Below, one piece after another: positions 1-10,917 of a stretch of DNA of 45,617 nt; position 1 is the stretch's first letter, and each line of letters starts with the position of its first letter. Both the position numbers and the translations under genes were made by a program. This DNA comes from a bacterium (GTDB taxonomy: Bacteria; Sysuimicrobiota; Sysuimicrobiia; Sysuimicrobiales; Segetimicrobiaceae). The stretch lies in contig DATGJN010000054.1 of the NCBI GenBank assembly GCA_035295165.1, forward strand, positions 1 to 45,617, written 5' to 3'. The notes beneath the pieces were generated by a model that was not told the origin of the DNA, made no database searches, and saw only the letters and a program-made list of their open reading frames with translations.

Positions 1-696
1 TTGCGCCACCGGCGCGGACGCGCTAACCGACGGACGCGCGCTGCGAACTGATTGCGGTTCCGGAGGCATGGTCATGCTCGCACCTGATTTTTCCGTAGCC
101 TGCTAGACGACCATGGGCGGCTCGGCGATCTCTCGCGGCGATGCCGGTCACGGCCTCGAGCGTCGGAGCCACTACGTGGGCGGGCCCGACGAACTCGCGG
201 CCCTCCGTGTAAGATCACCGCAACCGGCGTCGATCGCCCGCTTCCCCGAGAAGCGCGTTCAGCCGCCGTTCGCCCGGCGGTCAGGCTCATCCCGCCGAGC
301 GGGGTGACGTGATGTGCGCCGTTGCTCGCGGACGCGATGATCAACCAAGAGCGCTGTGCACCGACGGGACTGCGACTTCCGCGAACCCGAGGCCTATCCC
401 GCCGCCCCCGGCTGACCGATCCCCTCGAGAGCACCGGGCGCGGTCTCAATATTTGGGAGGCGCATGAAGGATCGATCCACCGATCCGCCGTCGTCGCCAT
501 CGATCTCCAAGGAGTCTTAAGGGAGCCTGGTGCTAAGGAGACGCTCCGATCATCCGTTCGGTTGCTGCAAAATGGAACGCGCGACGCCTTGTTGGTGTTC
601 CGATTTGGAACGAAATCTTGCTTCTCGTTGACTGCGGCTTTCCTCCACGCGCACCATGATGTTGAACGTCTATTTGAGAAAAAAGGGGGGGGCAAA
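1..696. other. Upstream region of the glycerol locus, no confident gene
   Basis: No convincing protein gene lies here. A reading frame without start runs from the window edge to a TAG at 104-106 on the + strand and could be the tail of a gene outside the window, but the 34 residues show no recognisable domain. An 18-codon ATG frame at 464-520 has a fair Shine-Dalgarno sequence (GGGAGG) and could be a leader peptide. An inverted-repeat cluster sits at 597-617. The long frame that runs into glpF from position 322 looks non-coding before the GTG at 697. Confidence 0.5.
597..617. promoter_or_regulatory. Candidate operator upstream of glpF
   Basis: Two overlapping inverted repeats are visible: GTTCC-GATTT-GGAAC at 597-611 and GATTT-GGAACG-AAATC at 602-617. 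The core TGGAACG also occurs about 35 bases upstream, near 573. The position, about 80 bases before the glpF start in an otherwise non-coding leader, suits a repressor or activator site for the glycerol operon. No regulator gene is next to it, so the binding protein is unknown. Confidence 0.35.
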
Positions 697-1443
697 GTGT
701 CAACCTTTGCGGCAGAGCTCATCGGCACGATGGTGCTGATCATTCTAGGTGACGGCGTCGTGGCCGGTGTGGTACTCAACAAGACGAAATCCCAGAACAG
801 CGGATGGATCGTCATCACGGCGGGGTGGGGACTGGCCGTCGCAATCGCCGTGTACGCGGTCGGGCGCATCAGCGGCGCCCACATCAACCCTGCCGTGACG
901 ATCGGCCTCGCGTCGATCGGGTTGTTCCCGTGGTCCCAGGTGCCGATGTATATCCTCGCGCAGATGATCGGCGCGTTCCTTGGCGGGGTCATCGTCTACC
1001 TGGCCTATCTGCCCCACTGGCCGGTCACTGAGAACGCCGACCTGAAGCTCGCGGTCTTCTCGACCGCTCCGGCGATTCGCAACTACGGCGCAAACCTCGT
1101 CACGGAGATCATCGGCGCGTTCGTGCTCGTGTTCGGCGTGCTCGCCATCGTCGGCAACTTCAGCGCGGGTGTCATGACGGACACCCCGCTGCGCACGGCG
1201 TTCGCCACCGCGTTTCCGCCCCTGCTCGTAGGGTTGCTCGTGTGGGCCATCGGCCTGTCGCTCGGCGGGCCGACCGGGTACGCGATCAATCCCGCGCGCG
1301 ACCTGGGGCCGCGCATCGCGCACGCGGTACTTCCAATCCCCGGCAAGCGCGACTCGGATTGGAGCTACAGCTGGGTACCCATCGTCGGTCCGATCATCGG
1401 CGGTGTGCTCGGCGCGCTCTTCTATCACGCGATGTTCCACTGA
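697..1443 (+). CDS. glpF: Glycerol uptake facilitator (aquaglyceroporin)
   Basis: A 248-residue MIP-family channel that lets glycerol cross the cytoplasmic membrane by facilitated diffusion. The two half-helix signatures are present: NPA at residues 64-66 and NPARD at 198-202. The Asp after the second NPAR is typical of glycerol facilitators rather than water-only aquaporins. About six hydrophobic membrane segments are seen. The start is the GTG at 697, directly after a run of A and G that serves as ribosome binding site; the frame is open further upstream, but that part does not look like protein. It is followed by glpK, so the imported glycerol would be trapped as glycerol-3-phosphate. Confidence 0.93.
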   Translation: MSTFAAELIGTMVLIILGDGVVAGVVLNKTKSQNSGWIVITAGWGLAVAIAVYAVGRISGAHINPAVTIGLASIGLFPWSQVPMYILAQMIGAFLGGVIVYLAYLPHWPVTENADLKLAVFSTAPAIRNYGANLVTEIIGAFVLVFGVLAIVGNFSAGVMTDTPLRTAFATAFPPLLVGLLVWAIGLSLGGPTGYAINPARDLGPRIAHAVLPIPGKRDSDWSYSWVPIVGPIIGGVLGALFYHAMFH

Positions 1444-1553
1444 CCGGATAGGAACTAACCGGCGAATCCGCGGGGAGTGGCCGGGCTCCGGCCGGCGAAG
1501 CACGGGAGTTGCTCCACAAACTAGGGTCAAGTCGATCGAGTGGAGGGGCTGTG

Positions 1554-3053
1554 ATGGCGAAGTACGCAGCGGCTGTGGACCAGGGGACCACCAGCACGCG
1601 CTTCATGATTTTCACCGAAAAGGGCGAGGTCGTCGCCGTTGACCAGAAAGAGCACGAGCAGATCTACCCCAAGCCAGGCTGGGTGGAGCACGACCCCGTG
1701 GAGATCTGGCAACGCACCCAAGAGGTCATCAAGGGCGGGCTGGCCAAGGGCAAGATCTCGGCGAAGGACCTCACCGGGGTCGGCATCACGAACCAGCGTG
1801 AAACGGCGGTCGTGTGGGACAAGAAGACCGGCAAGCCCGTCTATAACGCGATCGTGTGGCAGGACACTCGGACCGACACGATCTGCAACGAGCTGGCCAA
1901 GGACGGCGGTCAGGATCGCTTCCGTTCCAAGGTCGGCCTGCCGCTGGCGACCTACTTCTCAGGCCCGAAGATCAAGTGGATCCTCGACAACGTTCAGGGC
2001 GTCCGCGCGTCGGCGGAGCGCGGCGACGCCGTCTTCGGCAACATCGACACCTTTGTGATCTGGTGGCTCACCGGCGGACCGAACGGCGGCCTGCACATGA
2101 CCGACGTGACCAACGCCAGCCGGACGATGTTGATGAACCTGGAGACGCTTGACTGGGATCCGGAGATCCTGCGCATCATGGGCATACCGAAAGCGATGCT
2201 GCCCGAGATCCGGGCATCGAGCGACGTCTACGGCCCGGCAAAGGGCGACCTCGCCGGGATCCCCGTCGCGGGAGATCTGGGGGACCAGCAGGCGGCGTTG
2301 TTCGGGCAGACCTGCTTCGGCGTCGGCGAGGCGAAGAATACCTACGGCACCGGCTGCTTTATGCTGCTCAACACCGGTGAAAAGGCGATCCAGTCGAAGT
2401 CCGGCCTGCTCACCACGCTCGGGTACCGCATCGGCAAGCAGAAGCCAGTGTACGCGCTGGAAGGCTCCATCGCCATCACCGGGGCGCTCGTGCAGTGGCT
2501 CCGCGACAACCTTTCGATGATCGCGAAGTCCGCGGACGTCGAAGCGCTCGCCAAGACGGTCGACGACAACGGCGGCGTCTATTTTGTCCCGGCGTTTTCG
2601 GGGCTGTTCGCCCCGTACTGGAAGAGCGACGCCCGCGGCGTGATCGCCGGGCTGACCCGCTACGCCAACAAGGGCCACCTCGCGCGCGCGGCGTTGGAGG
2701 CCACGGCGTTCCAGACGCGTGAAGTGCTCGACGCGATGAACAAGGACTCCGGCGTGAAGCTGACCGCGCTCAAAGTGGACGGAGGCATGGTGTTCAACGA
2801 CCTGCTCATGCAGTTCCAGGCGGACATCCTGGGGGTGCCGGTGATCCGCCCCAAGGTCGCCGAGACCACCGCGCTGGGCGCGGCGTACGCCGCCGGGTTG
2901 GCGACGGGGCTGTGGTCCAACGTCGAGGGCCTGCGCGCCAACTGGGCCCGGGACAAGGAGTGGCACGCGCAGATGCCCGCGGACAAGCGCGAGCAGCTGT
3001 ACAAGACATGGCTGAAGGCTGTCACCAGAACGTTCGATTGGGTGAACGCGTAG
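1554..3053 (+). CDS. glpK: Glycerol kinase
   Basis: A 499-residue FGGY-family kinase, the usual length for GlpK, converting glycerol and ATP to sn-glycerol-3-phosphate in the cytoplasm. The N-terminal phosphate-binding motif DQGTTSTR is at residues 9-16. The substrate-contacting Arg-Glu pair is at 82-83 within ITNQRET, and the [13 protein letters not shown] segment carries the expected catalytic Asp. The ATG at 1554 is chosen because GGAGGGG precedes it and because the family N terminus ([14 protein letters not shown]) starts there. It lies 110 bases after glpF and 37 bases before dhaK, probably in one operon. Confidence 0.96.
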
Positions 3054-3090: not shown

Positions 3091-4092
<1,002 letters not shown>

Positions 4093-4118
4093 GGGTTCCG
4101 GTCCGGAGGGTAGAGAGC

Positions 4119-4757
4119 GTGTCGATTTCACGCGACGCCGTGCTCGATTGGATCAAAGCGTACGCCGCGGCGATCACGACGTCCAAGGACTACCTGACCA
4201 AGCTCGACGCGGACATCGGTGACGGCGACCACGGGACGAACATGGATCGCGGCTTTCAGAGCGTCCTGGCGAAGTTGCCGAGCGTTGCCGACAAGGACAT
4301 CGGCACCATCTTCAAGACGGTGGGAATGACGCTGGTGTCCACTGTCGGCGGCGCCGGCGGCCCGCTGTACGGGACGCTGTTCATTCAAATGGGGACCGCC
4401 GTGGCGGGCAAGATGGAGCTGACCCTGGCAGACTGGGCGGCGGCGGTGCAGGCGGGCGTCAACGGCGTCGTCATGCGTGGCAAGGCCAACCTCGGGGACA
4501 AGACCATGGTCGACGCATTGACCCCGGCCGCCGCGTCGCTGAAGAACGCCGCCGCCAACGGGGTGGCGTTCAACGAGGCGCTGCAGGAAGCGGAACACGC
4601 GGCGGCGGAAGGCATGATCGCCACGATCCCGCTTGTCGCGCGCAAGGGACGGGCGAGTTACCTCGGGGAGCGCAGCGCCGGCCATCAAGACCCCGGGGCG
4701 ACCTCGTCGCACATGTTGCTCAAGACCGCCGCGGACACGTGGGCTCGCGCGGGTTGA
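4119..4757 (+). CDS. dhaL: Dihydroxyacetone kinase, ADP-binding subunit DhaL
   Basis: A 212-residue DhaL subunit, the usual length. It carries a tightly bound ADP that is phosphorylated by DhaM and then donates phosphate to dihydroxyacetone on DhaK. The Mg-ADP site is visible as Asp30, Asp35 and Asp37 in LDADIGDGDHG, followed by GGAGGPLYGT and the GRASYLGERSAGHQDPGA loop near the C terminus. The GTG at 4119 is preferred over the ATG at 4080 because GGAGGG stands about 8 bases upstream and the protein then begins like its relatives. It lies 26 bases after dhaK. A perfect 19-base inverted repeat separates it from the dhaM fusion gene. Confidence 0.95.
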   Translation: MSISRDAVLDWIKAYAAAITTSKDYLTKLDADIGDGDHGTNMDRGFQSVLAKLPSVADKDIGTIFKTVGMTLVSTVGGAGGPLYGTLFIQMGTAVAGKMELTLADWAAAVQAGVNGVVMRGKANLGDKTMVDALTPAAASLKNAAANGVAFNEALQEAEHAAAEGMIATIPLVARKGRASYLGERSAGHQDPGATSSHMLLKTAADTWARAG

Positions 4758-4798
4758 ACGTGCGTGGGCGGGACCCCAACCTCGCCCGCCCCGGATAT

Positions 4799-4842
4799 GC
4801 AGTCCGACGGCGTGGAGCACCCACTCCACGCCGTCGGACTGC
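4799..4842. repeat. Perfect 19-bp inverted repeat between dhaL and dhaM
   Basis: Arms 4799-4817 and 4824-4842 are perfectly complementary over 19 bases, with a 6-base loop (CACCCA). No T-run follows. The stem ends 9 bases before the GTG start of the dhaM fusion, next to its weak ribosome binding site. It could lower readthrough, protect an mRNA end, or mask the dhaM ribosome binding site and so set subunit ratios. Confidence 0.85.
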
Positions 4843-4851
4843 GGACGGACC

Positions 4852-7380
4852 GTGATCGGACTCGTTATCGTCTCCCATAGCGCCCAACTCGCCGACGGCG
4901 TCGCGGAGCTCGCGCGCGGTGTCGCTGGTCCCGACGTGCGTATTGCGGCGACGGGCGGGCTCGAACTCCCGGGACATCCTCTGGGCACGGACGCACAGCT
5001 GGTCGCCCGGGCGATCGAGCAGGTCTATTCCGACGACGGCGTGCTGGTGCTCATGGATCTGGGAAGCGCCGTGCTGAGCGCGGAGATGGCGCTGGAACAA
5101 GTTCCCCCAGAGCGCCGCGCGCATATCCTGCTCTGCGACGCACCGTTGGTCGAGGGTGCGGTGGCCGCCGCCGTGCAGGCACGCCTCGGCAGCACGCTCG
5201 AGCAGGTGGCCGCCGAGGCGCTCGGTTCACTGGCTCCCAAAAGCGCGCAGTTGGCGCCGTCGACACCGGCGCGCGATGTCGACGGGGTACGCCCCGGCGC
5301 GGCGCCGGTCGCGACCACGGTAGCTCCGCTCCGCGTGACGGTCGGGAATCGTCTCGGGTTACACGCGCGCCCCGCCGCGCGGTTCGTGCAAACCGCCAGC
5401 CGCTACAACGCCGAGATCCAGGTGCGCAATCTCACCGCAGGGCGCGGCCCGGTAAACGCCAAGAGCGTCAATGCGGTTGCAACGCTGGGAGCCCGCCAGG
5501 GACACGAGATCGAGGTGGCCGCGAGCGGCGCCGACGCTCAGGCTGCTCTCGACGCGATCCGAGCGCTCTCCGAGGTGAACTTCGGGGACGCGTCAGGCGC
5601 CGAGACGTCGCTGGCGACGCCCGGAAGCGGCGTGGCGAGATCGCCCGCGCCGTCTTCGGACGCTGCGGCCCTCGCGGGACTAGCCGCGTCTCCGGGAGTG
5701 GCGGTCGGCCCGGCACGCCTTTTCCGCTCCCCCCTGCCGCCGATCAGCGCGACGCCCGCGGGCGATCCCCAGCACGAGTGGGAGCGCCTCATCGCCGCTC
5801 TCGGAACGACGCGCGCGCAGCTTCAGCGCATCCGAGATGACGTCGCCGCGCGCGCCGACCCCGACGCCGCGGCGATCTTCGACGTCCACGTGCTCTTTCT
5901 CGACGACCAGGCCCTGCTGGACCCCGCTCGCCGAGCGATCTTCGACGACCACCTCAGCGCCGAGGCGGCGTGGGCGCGGGCGACCGAGGAGATCGTCGCC
6001 GCCTATCGCGCGCTCGACGACGAATACCAGCGGGCGCGGGCGGGGGACGTGACCGACGTGGGCGACCGCGTCATCCGTAACCTGCTCGGCGAGACGCAGG
6101 CTCCGCCGACGATGCGCGCGCCCGGTATCCTGGTCGCGGCCGAACTCACCCCGGCGGATGCCGCGCGTCTCGACCCGGCGCTTGCCCTTGGCATCTGCAC
6201 GGCGTTTGGCTCGCCGACGGCGCACAGCGCCATCCTGGCGCGAACGTTGGGCATTCCGGCCGTGGTCGGGTTGGGGCCGCGCATCTTGGACGTCCCGGAC
6301 GGAACGCTGATCATCGTGGATGGCGCCGAGGGGCGCGTCTGGGTGGCCCCCGAGCCCGCCATGGTCGCCGAGTATCAGGGCCGCGTCGCGACGGCGCGCG
6401 CTGCGGAAGCGACGGCCCGTGTTCCCGCGGGCCGCGTGGCCACGCGGGACGGGCACCGGGTCGAAGTCGTCGCGAACATCGGCTCACTCGCGGACGCCAA
6501 GGCCGCGGTGACCGCGGGTGCCGAGGGGGTCGGGCTGTTCCGCACCGAGTTTCTCTTCCTCGACCAACGCACCGCGCCGGACGAGGAGACGCAGGTCTCG
6601 ACCTACCGGGCCGCGGCGCTGGCACTCGGGGGCCGTCCGCTGATCATCCGGACGCTCGACGCCGGCGGCGACAAGCCGCTGCCGTACCTGAACCTGAGGG
6701 CGGAAGCCAACCCGTTCTTGGGCTGGCGGGCGATCCGGCTGTCCCTGGCCCACCCGGAACTGTTCAAAACGCAGTGCCGCGCGATCATCCGGGTGGCGGC
6801 CGAGTTCCCGGTGAAGGTGATGTTCCCCATGATCGCCACCCTGGGAGAGATCCGGTCCGCCCGCGCACTCCTCGACGAAGCGCGTGAGGAGGTCCGGCGC
6901 CGCGGTCAGGGCGTTCCACGGACGATGGAAACCGGGATCATGCTGGAGGTGCCGGCCGCGGCGGTGCGTGCGTCCACGTTCGCCCCGTGCGTCGACTTCT
7001 TCTCGGTCGGCACGAACGATCTGACCCAATACACGATGGCCGCCGAGCGGGGCAACGAGCGGGTAGCGGCCCTGGCCGACGCACTCCAGCCGGCCGTGTT
7101 GCAACTCATCGGCCAGGCGGTCGATGCCGCGCACGCATGCGGCAAGTGGGTCGGGGTGTGCGGCGAGCTCGCGGGAGACCCGGCTGCCGTGCCGGTACTG
7201 GTGGGGCTCGGCGTCGACGAATTGAGCATGAGCCCCCCGGCCATCCCGCGCGTCCGAGAGACCATCGTCGGATTGGACTATGCGGCCTGTCGCAGGCTCG
7301 CACAGGCGGTACTCACGCTGGATGCGGCCGATGAGGTGCGGACCCACCTGCGTCGCTGGAGCGCGGCCGGCGCATCGTAA
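4852..7380 (+). CDS. dhaM: DhaM-HPr-Enzyme I fusion (multiphosphoryl transfer protein)
   Basis: An 842-residue fusion of three phosphotransfer modules. Residues 1-125 form the mannose-type EIIA domain DhaM with phosphoryl His9 (IVSHS). Residues 160-245 form HPr with His171 in GLHARPA. Residues from about 275 to 842 form a complete PTS Enzyme I: His458 in SPTAHSAILAR, the PEP-site loops GLFRTEF and GTNDLTQY (720-727), and Cys770 in VCGELAGD. In E. coli DhaM the Enzyme I part is truncated and general EI and HPr are needed. Here one chain could take phosphate from PEP to DhaL-ADP unaided. The GTG at 4852 gives a normal DhaM N terminus. No sugar PTS permease is in view, so this PTS looks dedicated to dihydroxyacetone. 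Confidence 0.93.
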   Translation: MIGLVIVSHSAQLADGVAELARGVAGPDVRIAATGGLELPGHPLGTDAQLVARAIEQVYSDDGVLVLMDLGSAVLSAEMALEQVPPERRAHILLCDAPLVEGAVAAAVQARLGSTLEQVAAEALGSLAPKSAQLAPSTPARDVDGVRPGAAPVATTVAPLRVTVGNRLGLHARPAARFVQTASRYNAEIQVRNLTAGRGPVNAKSVNAVATLGARQGHEIEVAASGADAQAALDAIRALSEVNFGDASGAETSLATPGSGVARSPAPSSDAAALAGLAASPGVAVGPARLFRSPLPPISATPAGDPQHEWERLIAALGTTRAQLQRIRDDVAARADPDAAAIFDVHVLFLDDQALLDPARRAIFDDHLSAEAAWARATEEIVAAYRALDDEYQRARAGDVTDVGDRVIRNLLGETQAPPTMRAPGILVAAELTPADAARLDPALALGICTAFGSPTAHSAILARTLGIPAVVGLGPRILDVPDGTLIIVDGAEGRVWVAPEPAMVAEYQGRVATARAAEATARVPAGRVATRDGHRVEVVANIGSLADAKAAVTAGAEGVGLFRTEFLFLDQRTAPDEETQVSTYRAAALALGGRPLIIRTLDAGGDKPLPYLNLRAEANPFLGWRAIRLSLAHPELFKTQCRAIIRVAAEFPVKVMFPMIATLGEIRSARALLDEAREEVRRRGQGVPRTMETGIMLEVPAAAVRASTFAPCVDFFSVGTNDLTQYTMAAERGNERVAALADALQPAVLQLIGQAVDAAHACGKWVGVCGELAGDPAAVPVLVGLGVDELSMSPPAIPRVRETIVGLDYAACRRLAQAVLTLDAADEVRTHLRRWSAAGAS

Positions 7381-7420: not shown

Positions 7421-7792
7421 CTAGCGGGTCACCACCACAAGCGTCAACACGAGGCTGTACAAGAACATCGCACCCCCGAGCACCGTCAGGCCGAGGCTGA
7501 GCCTGCGCTCTGCGTCTCCAGACACGCCCAGGTCGATCAGGATGGCTCTGAGGCCGGCAAACGCGTGGAAGATGACCGTAGCGGCGAACACCGTCTCCAC
7601 CACGAACGCGACCGGATTGCGGAGGTATGCGACCACCTCGCGGTAGCCGAGAATCCCCTGCTGGCCGGAAAAGTGCTGGGCGGCCATGTGGAGCGTGACG
7701 AGCACGACCAAAACGATGCCCGATGCCGCCTGCAATATCCAGGCCCAGGAGGAATATCCCCGCGATCCGGTGAGCACGGACACATCCTTCAT
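7421..7792 (-). CDS. Complex II-type membrane anchor, SdhD-like
   Basis: A 123-residue protein with three hydrophobic helices, resembling the second membrane anchor of succinate dehydrogenase or fumarate reductase. The helix motif FHAFAGLRAILIDLG (residues 75-89) matches the SdhD pattern in which a His (here His76) ligates heme b and an Asp follows about 11 residues later. His35 and His40 lie in helix 1. Its ATG overlaps the sdhC-like stop as ATGA, so translation is probably coupled. It is the last gene of the glpA-sdhB-sdhC-sdhD-like set and converges with the dhaM fusion 40 bases away. No sdhA is adjacent, so a role with the GlpA-type flavoprotein is proposed. Confidence 0.8.
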   Translation of the reverse strand: MKDVSVLTGSRGYSSWAWILQAASGIVLVVLVTLHMAAQHFSGQQGILGYREVVAYLRNPVAFVVETVFAATVIFHAFAGLRAILIDLGVSGDAERRLSLGLTVLGGAMFLYSLVLTLVVVTR

Positions 7793-8196
7793 GACGGCAG
7801 CACCCTGAATATCCGCAGCGCGCAGTAGGCCAGGACGAGCGCGCCGGTCGTCATCAGGCTCCAGAACACGGTCTTCTGCCGGGGCACGCCGACGTTGATG
7901 GCCAGAAGCGACAGCCGGATTCCGTTCAGTCCGTGATAGAGCAGCGCCGCGAGCAACAGGATATCGAACGCCAGAAACGGCGGTGTGCGAAACAGCCGCA
8001 TGGTGCCGTCCCAGGCGCCCTCGCCGAGATAGAGGGCGCTGATCGCCGCGAAGTGCACGAAGAGATACAGTGTCAGCAGCAGCCCCGTGATCCGGTTCAG
8101 CACGAACGCCCACATACCGAGACGCCGCCGGCGCGCGTCGAACCAGCCCGCCACCTCTGCCCACCTCACCGGCTGCTCACGTTCGCTTCGTATCAC
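7789..8196 (-). CDS. Complex II-type cytochrome b subunit, SdhC-like
   Basis: A 135-residue three-helix membrane protein of the SdhC family. The first helix carries NRITGLLLTLYLFVH (residues 34-48), the family signature with the quinone-site Arg and Gly. The second carries YHGLNGIRLSLL, where His88 aligns with the SdhC heme b ligand before the GIR motif. The GTG at 8196 is chosen because GGGAGGCG lies just upstream, and it overlaps the sdhB-like gene by 20 bases. With SdhD it would anchor the iron-sulfur subunit and pass electrons to quinone. Inferred partner is the GlpA-type flavoprotein rather than SdhA. Confidence 0.85.
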   Translation of the reverse strand: MIRSEREQPVRWAEVAGWFDARRRRLGMWAFVLNRITGLLLTLYLFVHFAAISALYLGEGAWDGTMRLFRTPPFLAFDILLLAALLYHGLNGIRLSLLAINVGVPRQKTVFWSLMTTGALVLAYCALRIFRVLPS

Positions 8197-8929
8197 GGTC
8201 GCCTCCCGACGGAGCGGCCAATGCCCCCCGCCCGAACAACCTCTTGATGCGCTCACGAATCAGCCTGGCCCGGAGCGCCATGATCGCCCCGGCAGGATTC
8301 ACGTCAGACGGGCAGACCTCGGTGCACTCGAACGCGGAGTGGCACTGCCACACGCCGTGCTCACCGTCCAGCAACCGGAGCAGGGACGGGACGTCGGCCT
8401 CCCGAGGCTCGGCGATCACCCGCTCCGCGGCCGCGAGGGCGGCGGGGCCGAGATAGTGCGGGCTCGCAAGCATCACCGGGCAGGCCGAGAGACACAGCCC
8501 GCACTCGATGCAGTTCTCAAACCGGTGGAAATCGCCGGGTTCGCCGAACGGCTCCGCGCGACGGATCAGGGGCATGCCGACCTGCTGCATCCGCTTGAAC
8601 AGCGGGGCCGGATCCACCACGAGATCGCCGAGGACGGGGAACGAGCGGAGCGGTTCGATCGTCAAGGTGCCGCCGTCGGTGGTGACATCCTGGACGGTTG
8701 TGACACAGGGCAGCTTCTCCACCCCGTTCACTCGCAACCCGCAGGACCCGCAGGAAGCGTGATGGCACGCGTGCCGGAACGCGAGCGTGCGGTCCTGACG
8801 CGCCCAAATGACCTCGATGCCATCCAGCACCGTTTCGTCCGGCCGGATCTCCACGGTGAACGTGTCGTGGCGGGTTGCGGACCCATTTCCGGTCGTCCTG
8901 GAGATCCGATACCGGACCCGCCAGGTCAT
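8177..8929 (-). CDS. Complex II-type iron-sulfur subunit, SdhB-like
   Basis: A 250-residue SdhB/FrdB-family protein with every cluster ligand present. The plant-ferredoxin [2Fe-2S] site is Cys55, Cys60, Cys63 and Cys75. In the C-terminal domain Cys140, Cys143, Cys146 and Cys206 match the [4Fe-4S] ligands, and Cys150, Cys196 and Cys202 the [3Fe-4S] ligands of E. coli SdhB. In known complexes this subunit wires a flavoprotein to quinone at the membrane. Its ATG overlaps the upstream glpA-like stop as ATGA, a sign that the two proteins are made in equal amounts. That the flavoprotein here is GlpA-type and not SdhA is the remarkable point. Confidence 0.92.
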   Translation of the reverse strand: MTWRVRYRISRTTGNGSATRHDTFTVEIRPDETVLDGIEVIWARQDRTLAFRHACHHASCGSCGLRVNGVEKLPCVTTVQDVTTDGGTLTIEPLRSFPVLGDLVVDPAPLFKRMQQVGMPLIRRAEPFGEPGDFHRFENCIECGLCLSACPVMLASPHYLGPAALAAAERVIAEPREADVPSLLRLLDGEHGVWQCHSAFECTEVCPSDVNPAGAIMALRARLIRERIKRLFGRGALAAPSGGDRDTKRT

Positions 8930-10104
8930 GATGTCGCCTGCGCATAGAATTCGCGAGACGACGCCAGCACCGTCTCGCGGGTCAAACACGGAGCCGTCAC
9001 ACCCAGCGCGCGGCACACGACGTCCGCGGTCTTCTCGGCCATTGCCCGCGCCGTCGTCATCTTGCCGCCCGTGATCGTGACAAAGCCGTGCACCGAGTCG
9101 CGCGTGTGGTCGAAACACTCGAACGTACGGCTCAGCTCGCGTCCGCTGGTACCGGCCGCACCGATGAGCGGCCTTGCCACGGCAAAAGCGCCGTTCATGT
9201 GCGCCCGGCGGAGCACCGGGAGGAGTTCCGCCCCTTTCTCGAGCATCAGGCGGACGTGGTCCTGCGGCACGGGGATGTAGTCCGCATGCTCCACGGGCCA
9301 CGAGGTGGTGCCGATGATGGAAGTCCGCCGCTGAGGCAGGACGATATCGCCGTCGGCGGGTTTGTTGAGCCGGTTGATGACCATGTTGCACACCCGCATG
9401 TCCATGGAGACCATGACGCCCGGGGTGGGGTTGACCGGAACCGAGATCCCGGCCATGGCGGCGACGTCGGACGCCCAAGCGCCGGTCGCGTTGACGACCA
9501 TGTCGCTCTCGATCTGATAGATGCGATTGCGCAAGCGATCCCGTACCCGCACACCCCGGATCGTGCCCCGGCCGTCGCTAAGCAACTCTACGACTTCCGT
9601 GTACGGATGGACTTCAGCACCGTTGCGCATGGCCGTGGCCAGCAGGCGCAGGCAGAATCGGAAGGCCTCGAATGTGCCGTCGGGCACACGAACCGCCGCC
9701 AGGAGGCCGGGGTTGAGGTTCGGCTCGAGGGCGAGCGCCTGCTCGCGGGTCAACTCCTCGTACGGGATGCCGCACGCGGCGCACGCGGTGAGAAACGGCT
9801 CTTTGTAGGCGAGGTCGGCGTCGCTGAGGGCGACAAACAACCCATCGTTCAATTCGAGGCCATCGGGCATGATCCGGCGCAGGATCATGTTTTCCTGGAT
9901 GCATTCGACGGCGGCCTCGTGGTCCCTCACGCAATAGCGGCCGCCGCTGTGCAGCACGCAATGACATCGTCCGGTGGTACCCGAGCCAATCTCGCCGCGT
10001 TCGACTACGACGACCTTGCAGCCGCGGAGGGCCAGATCGTGAGCGGTCGCCGCGCCGGTGGAACCCGCCCCGATGACTACCACGATGCGCCCGTTATGCG
10101 CCAC
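8926..10104 (-). CDS. glpA: Short GlpA-type glycerol-3-phosphate dehydrogenase flavoprotein
   Basis: A 392-residue FAD-dependent oxidoreductase of the DAO fold, expected to oxidise sn-glycerol-3-phosphate to DHAP. The dinucleotide-binding GAGSTG is at residues 12-17. The GlpA-type segment TTGRCHCVLHSGGRY (43-57) and GGKMTTARAMAEK near the C terminus match the N-terminal two thirds of E. coli GlpA. The C-terminal BFD-like cysteine domain of GlpA (about 150 residues) is absent. No glpB or glpC is nearby; SdhB-, SdhC- and SdhD-like genes follow with overlaps. The GTG at 10104 is the start. I infer a membrane complex passing electrons to quinone. The alternative is another DAO-family substrate. 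Confidence 0.85.
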   Translation of the reverse strand: MAHNGRIVVVIGAGSTGAATAHDLALRGCKVVVVERGEIGSGTTGRCHCVLHSGGRYCVRDHEAAVECIQENMILRRIMPDGLELNDGLFVALSDADLAYKEPFLTACAACGIPYEELTREQALALEPNLNPGLLAAVRVPDGTFEAFRFCLRLLATAMRNGAEVHPYTEVVELLSDGRGTIRGVRVRDRLRNRIYQIESDMVVNATGAWASDVAAMAGISVPVNPTPGVMVSMDMRVCNMVINRLNKPADGDIVLPQRRTSIIGTTSWPVEHADYIPVPQDHVRLMLEKGAELLPVLRRAHMNGAFAVARPLIGAAGTSGRELSRTFECFDHTRDSVHGFVTITGGKMTTARAMAEKTADVVCRALGVTAPCLTRETVLASSREFYAQATS

Positions 10105-10235: not shown

Positions 10236-10754
10236 CTAGTTTTCGATTTGGGGGCCGCTCTCTGGCCCTTGCGCGGGCGGTCGTGGGCTCGGGGTTTCTG
10301 TCGGAGGCCCGCTGTCGGCGCTGTAGGGAGGGACGAGACGGTCGTACGACTCGCGCATCAGCGGGGAAGAGACCATGAAGTCCGCCGACGCCCTGTTGCA
10401 CGCGACCGGCACGTTCCACACGACGGCGACGCGGAGCAGCGCGCGCACGTCCGGATCGTGTGGCAGCGGTTCGAGCGGATCCCAGAAGAAGATCAGGAAG
10501 TCAATCCCACCGCGCGAGATCCGGGCGCCGATCTCGAGGTCGCCGCCGAGCGGCCCGCTGTGGAACGTGGTGACCGGAAGTCCTAGCTCGTCCGAGATCA
10601 TGCGCCCCGTGGTGCGCGTTGCGTACAGGCGATGCCGTTCGAGCGACCCGCGATTGAACCGCATCCAGTCGACCAGGTCGGCCTTCTTGTTGTCGTGCGC
10701 GATACACGCTATGCGCTTCTCGCGGCCCATGCGAACCCGGTTGTACGTTTCCAC
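10236..10754 (-). CDS. mgsA: Methylglyoxal synthase
   Basis: A 172-residue enzyme converting DHAP to methylglyoxal and phosphate, a bypass that relieves triose-phosphate build-up. The core matches MgsA closely: IAHDNKK with His20, GGD with catalytic Asp72, and FFWDPLEPLPHDPDVRALLR with His99 and Asp102. A Pro/Ser/Glu-rich tail of about 30 residues after position 142 is longer than in the 152-residue E. coli enzyme. The GTG at 10754 is preferred to the ATG at 10730 because AAGAGGTG lies about 6 bases upstream. It lies 131 bases upstream of glpA on the same strand, so the DHAP producer and this consumer may share a transcript. Confidence 0.93.
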   Translation of the reverse strand: METYNRVRMGREKRIACIAHDNKKADLVDWMRFNRGSLERHRLYATRTTGRMISDELGLPVTTFHSGPLGGDLEIGARISRGGIDFLIFFWDPLEPLPHDPDVRALLRVAVVWNVPVACNRASADFMVSSPLMRESYDRLVPPYSADSGPPTETPSPRPPAQGPESGPQIEN

Positions 10755-10917
10755 GTCCGCACCTCTTGGCCAGGACTTCCATTCCTGCCCCTGGAGTCCT
10801 TCCATCGCTGGCGACGAGGACTGCGATGAGACCGTGGCAACGCGTCCGCACCGCCCCGCGCGAAGCGGTTGTGGTTGGGCGGGGCGCGGCGCCGACTTCA
10901 GTGCGGTGGCGTACGTA

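Follow-up and report, generated by a model that had tools for sequence, protein, structure and literature searches.

A short GlpA-type flavoprotein encoded with SdhB-, SdhC- and SdhD-type subunits in bacteria: a likely glycerol-3-phosphate:quinone oxidoreductase

The glpA-sdhBCD locus and its neighborhood

The window, by which we mean the whole analyzed stretch of 45,617 nucleotides, is contig C54 of a 4.79-Mb assembly that is 97.9% complete. It contains four overlapping genes for a flavoprotein, an iron-sulfur subunit and two membrane anchors, as well as several genes of glycerol and dihydroxyacetone metabolism:

322..1443 (ORF), plus strand: glpF, glycerol facilitator (Pfam MIP); in the same operon in many relatives
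1509..3053 (ORF), plus strand: glpK, glycerol kinase (TIGR01311, 742 bits); adjoins glpA in most relatives
3091..7380, plus strand: dhaK, dhaL and dhaM, PTS-type dihydroxyacetone kinase (TIGR02363, TIGR02365, TIGR02364, TIGR01417)
7421..7792, minus strand: sdhD-type membrane anchor, 123 aa (Sdh_cyt, 54 bits)
7789..8196, minus strand: sdhC-type membrane anchor, 135 aa, GTG start (Sdh_cyt; TIGR02970 above cut-off)
8177..8929, minus strand: sdhB-type iron-sulfur subunit, 250 aa, with 11 cluster cysteines (Fer2_3, Fer4_8, TIGR00384)
8926..10104, minus strand: glpA-type FAD subunit, short form, 392 aa, GTG start (Pfam DAO, 166 bits; TIGR03377 partial)
10239-10805, minus strand (same strand as glpA): mgsA, methylglyoxal synthase, 134 bases upstream of glpA

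The genes glpA, sdhB, sdhC and sdhD follow one another in this order on the minus strand with overlaps of 4, 20 and 4 bases, which agrees to the base with the layout of the original prediction. Neither sdhA nor glpB nor glpC was found near these genes using open reading frames and Pfam domain searches of the neighborhood, so that their predicted absence from the locus is borne out. The predicted neighbors glpF and glpK are present as well, but they belong to a larger glpF-glpK-dhaK-dhaL-dhaM operon, which lies on the plus strand and is convergent with glpA-sdhBCD. As the MIP domain of GlpF begins near residue 128, the true start of glpF is located further in than the start of the open reading frame; glpK probably starts with the ATG at 1554. 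The product of glpK supplies glycerol-3-phosphate, and DhaM is a full-length EIIA-HPr-EI fusion. The genes dhaK, dhaL and dhaM accompany glpK and GlpA-SdhBCD in most loci (window; L020-L030, L099-L113), and they are kept there although dihydroxyacetone phosphate comes directly from glycerol-3-phosphate oxidation. While the linkage to glpK and glpF is conserved in the relatives, that to mgsA, which had been proposed along with it, is not, and mgsA was rejected as a member of the module since it is not found at the relatives' loci.

The short GlpA flavoprotein

The flavoprotein matches the model TIGR03377 (glycerol3P_GlpA) from position 2 to 382 of 530 with 436 bits, the cut-off being 552.8 bits. 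It therefore lacks the C-terminal Fe-S (bfd-like) domain, in line with the prediction of a GlpA that stops at 392 residues before the C-terminal cysteine domain, and this domain is also missing in the alignment with GlpA of Escherichia coli. All SdhB-linked GlpAs are similarly short with ~389-395 aa, whereas canonical GlpAs comprise 507-552 aa, sequences cut by a contig end having been set aside. The residues R56, Y57, R311, R326, K348 and R353 are invariant in the alignment of 24 of 24 linked GlpAs and 11 of 11 GlpAs of the GlpABC type. They align with R54, Y55, R317, R332, K354 and R359 of E. coli GlpD, which we take, following GlpD structures, to be the glycerol-3-phosphate site, and the substrate-site residues common to the FAD-dependent glycerol-3-phosphate dehydrogenases (GlpA/GlpD/GlpO) are thus kept in GlpA of the window. 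An AlphaFold model of this protein, based on an alignment of 11 sequences, is of poor quality (mean pLDDT 62).

Since the DAO superfamily is broad and GlpA scores below the equivalog cut-off, the flavoprotein might feed SdhBCD with electrons from another small hydroxy acid or an amine. However, the low score is due to the missing C-terminal domain, as the 436 bits were reached over 382 positions; moreover, the substrate-site arginines and the lysine of GlpD/GlpA are all kept and the gene sits together with glpK and glpF, which makes a different substrate very unlikely.

The SdhB subunit and the membrane anchors

The iron-sulfur subunit scores 172 bits against TIGR00384 (dhsB), for which the cut-off is 88. 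All of the 11 predicted cluster cysteines are present in the alignment (C55, C60, C63, C75; C140, C143, C146, C150; C196, C202, C206), and a motif check identified the [2Fe-2S], [4Fe-4S] and [3Fe-4S] cysteine motifs of complex II. A histidine beside the first [2Fe-2S] cysteine, H53, occurs in 24 of 24 linked SdhBs versus one of 16 other SdhBs; by analogy with complex II, this position would face the flavoprotein. SdhC and SdhD each have three hydrophobic stretches according to hydropathy. The histidine predicted in each anchor is also there, as His48 and His88 of SdhC and His35, His40 and His76 of SdhD are invariant across nine aligned relatives.

An SdhB without SdhA in the source genome

In profile searches, three SdhB genes and two SdhA C-domains stand out in the genome. 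Both SdhAs directly adjoin the two other SdhBs, on contigs C104 and C20, and therefore the SdhB of the window is the one without an SdhA. The original prediction had named a sole sdhBCD set with an orphan sdhA elsewhere as the situation that would speak against it; this possibility is rejected, as two complete sdhA-sdhB pairs are located elsewhere in the genome. Furthermore, no match to GlpC over cut-off and no match to the GlpD C-domain PF16901 was found in the whole, 97.9% complete genome, by which a canonical GlpABC or GlpD at another site is rejected as well. The DAO-family paralogs found in the genome are 26-34% identical to GlpA of the window and of other types, and by eye they look glycine/sarcosine-oxidase-like. 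Because GlpC and the GlpD C-domain are unmatched and the paralogs are of other types, glpA-sdhBCD is, as judged from these searches, the only recognized flavin-dependent glycerol-3-phosphate dehydrogenase of this organism. Two genomes of the same genus lack the glpA-sdhBCD set and contain SdhBs only of the ordinary type, and a genome of the same family (G033) has a canonical glpK-glpA-glpB arrangement. Therefore, glpA-sdhBCD is accessory in this lineage, a module that was probably acquired laterally.

Distribution and conservation in other genomes

Searching the contigs of bacterial and archaeal genomes with GlpA gave 33 loci. The best 11 of these, with 55-66% identity, belong to Chloroflexota/Anaerolineae and one Bacillota MAG, and in nine of the 11, which is every case where the contig continues, glpA is followed by sdhB. 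The remaining GlpA loci (38-44% identity) have no adjacent SdhB of the linked type, and there was no archaeal locus among the 33 of this one search. Within the same Chloroflexota genomes, a profile of the linked SdhB yields 367-431 bits for linked SdhBs versus 198-224 bits for SdhA-linked ones. With this profile, an SdhB of the linked type is detected in 16 of 400 Chloroflexota genomes, 50 of 396 Anaerolineae (the class of G049; ~13% of the sampled genomes) and one of 249 genomes of the phylum to which the Bacillota carrier belongs.

The neighborhoods of 62 further positive genomes were examined. A short GlpA is encoded directly upstream of the linked sdhB in 58 of them, at a distance of at most 600 bases in 57, whereas in L161 glpA overlaps sdhB by ~20 bases. 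SdhC and SdhD follow downstream in nearly all of the loci with GlpA upstream of the linked SdhB, and the usual operon is glpF-dhaK-dhaL-glpK-glpA-sdhB-sdhC-sdhD-dhaM. Of the four exceptions, two are interrupted by the end of the contig (L080, L152), and in the other two the linked sdhB lies away from glpA (L145, L146); in all four, a short GlpA is present elsewhere in the genome, on another contig or at a contig end. The linked-type sdhB of L145 (5939-6610) and of L146 (3990-4661) stands by itself, flanked by efp and prs, and the short GlpA of these genomes is encoded on a different contig. In one of these four genomes, G720, the missing link is seen, as glpA extends into the beginning of sdhB where the contig ends (L168). 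The glpA-sdhB pattern is not a binning artifact, as contigs 3.3 and 4.0 Mb long (G260, G423) show it as well, and chance adjacency or an assembly artifact is rejected by about sixty genomes, some of them with megabase-long contigs. Hence, the search for glpA beside sdhB without sdhA that had been proposed recovers the pairing across relatives, and the lack of conservation that would have counted against the prediction is not observed.

The Bacillota MAG (DDT20) contains a variant of the locus (L020:6164-7994), in which the gene after the linked sdhB is neither sdhC nor sdhD but encodes a protein that matches the CCG domain (PF02754) twice. Modules of this kind occur in GlpC, and it looks as if the C-terminal half of GlpC had been kept on a complex II-type SdhB. 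No SdhB other than the linked one was found in this genome. Because the CCG-domain protein takes the place of SdhC/D there, SdhCD are not universal partners. A further arrangement is found in Chloroflexota genome G450 (L112, G450:C214), where a canonical glpA-glpB-glpC is located directly beside glpA-sdhB-sdhC-sdhD. In a plasmid collection, no SdhB with more than 38% identity was among the matches listed. Two haloarchaeal plasmid records encode a short GlpA-like protein of ~420 aa (L092:3938-5194, L094:2974-4248), beside which neither glpBC nor sdhB is listed.

Phylogeny of the linked subunits

In the SdhB tree, the 24 GlpA-linked proteins form one clade (SH-aLRT 98) apart from 16 SdhA-linked or other SdhBs, as the original prediction would have it. 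Correspondingly, the 24 SdhB-linked GlpAs form one clade (SH-aLRT 99) apart from GlpABC-type and haloarchaeal GlpAs. Both are quick trees with SH-aLRT support only and uncertain roots. The mirror-tree correlation between GlpA and SdhB is r 0.92 (23 loci), a figure that is inflated by shared ancestry.

These data bear on the possibility that sdhBCD encodes an ordinary complex II base, whose SdhA partner has its gene elsewhere, and that glpA is its neighbor by chance. The genome indeed encodes SdhAs elsewhere, and SdhB is above the general dhsB cut-off. However, each SdhA already has its own adjacent SdhB, GlpA adjoins this SdhB clade in the great majority of the further genomes (58/62), the clade excludes every SdhA-linked SdhB, and carrier G043 is without any other SdhB. 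We thus regard an ordinary complex II base as highly improbable.

Proposed function of GlpA-SdhBCD

Since the SdhB is unpaired with sdhA, the operon is conserved, the linked subunits form exclusive clades and the substrate and cluster residues are kept, glpA-sdhBCD very probably encodes a membrane-bound glycerol-3-phosphate:quinone oxidoreductase that uses the base and the electron relay of complex II. For this predicted enzyme we infer a physical complex, its substrate, electron path, heme content, quinone type and direction as follows. The short GlpA would oxidize glycerol-3-phosphate to dihydroxyacetone phosphate on FAD while docked on its dedicated SdhB. From the FAD, the electrons would pass over the [2Fe-2S], [4Fe-4S] and [3Fe-4S] clusters of SdhB to quinone at a site that SdhB may form with SdhC and SdhD, with the conserved histidines of the two anchors as putative ligands of heme b. 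SdhB would thereby do the work of the lost C-terminal Fe-S domain of GlpA as well as of GlpB and GlpC, and SdhC/D would stand in for the membrane link of GlpC. That the complex acts mainly in reverse, with quinol as the reductant that converts dihydroxyacetone phosphate into glycerol-3-phosphate for lipid synthesis in the manner of fumarate reductase, is scarcely to be expected: there are anaerobes among the carriers, for example in Anaerolineae, and complex II homologs are able to run in either direction, but the potential of dihydroxyacetone phosphate/glycerol-3-phosphate lies below that of menaquinone, so that by textbook potentials oxidation is downhill, and the association with glpF and glpK suggests a role in the breakdown of glycerol.

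Comparison with known systems

A GlpA-SdhBCD has already been proposed for archaea. In Thermofilum-related archaea glpA is followed by counterparts of sdhB, C and D, and for T. pendens the complex is drawn with a proposed role in membrane anchoring and electron transfer (PMC11962113, Fig. 9; Commun Biol 2025). With glpA followed by sdhB, sdhC and sdhD, without sdhA and with conservation in relatives, the locus of the window is of this GlpA-SdhBCD type. Gene order and proposed role are the same, whereas the Thermofilum loci are archaeal and the present ones bacterial. The combination is not categorically new, and the "new" oxidoreductase of the original prediction has to be qualified, as it was already proposed for an archaeon from gene order, while its occurrence in bacteria is added here. 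In the open-licence literature, preprints excluded, no other paper describing glpA-sdhBCD was found. What is new is the distribution among bacteria, the clade of dedicated SdhBs and the variant with a CCG protein replacing SdhC/D. Moreover, the article states that glpB and glpC are the consistent partners of glpA in bacteria (PMC11962113), which is contradicted by the present loci.

Compared to GlpABC of E. coli, the catalytic domain of GlpA is ~42% identical over the matched stretch and has the same substrate residues, but GlpA here lacks the C-terminal Fe-S domain, and SdhB, SdhC and SdhD stand in place of GlpB and a CCG-type GlpC. Compared to complex II (SdhABCD), the three cluster motifs of SdhB and the two three-helix anchors with conserved histidines are the same; however, there is no SdhA, the flavoprotein belongs to the DAO fold family and SdhB forms a clade of its own. 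GlpD, too, is an FAD enzyme of the DAO fold and shares the substrate-site residues, but it attaches to the membrane on its own and does without an Fe-S subunit, and its C-domain PF16901 was not found in the source genome. It is conceivable, though less likely than not, that the loci represent a bacterial class of glycerol-3-phosphate:quinone oxidoreductase of their own, in which a DAO flavoprotein replaced SdhA on a complex II base with an exchangeable membrane module, i.e. SdhC/D in Chloroflexota and a CCG protein in one Bacillota lineage, and which may have originated in bacteria independently of the Thermofilum case. Annotation pipelines probably miss GlpA-SdhBCD, with GlpA under the equivalog cut-off and SdhB/C/D counted as complex II. 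The defining subunit of complex II is normally the SdhA/FrdA flavoprotein; if the proposed function is true, the Fe-S and membrane part of the complex would be a reusable entry point for electrons into the quinone pool, and GlpA-SdhBCD would constitute a third bacterial route of respiratory glycerol-3-phosphate oxidation beside GlpD and GlpABC.
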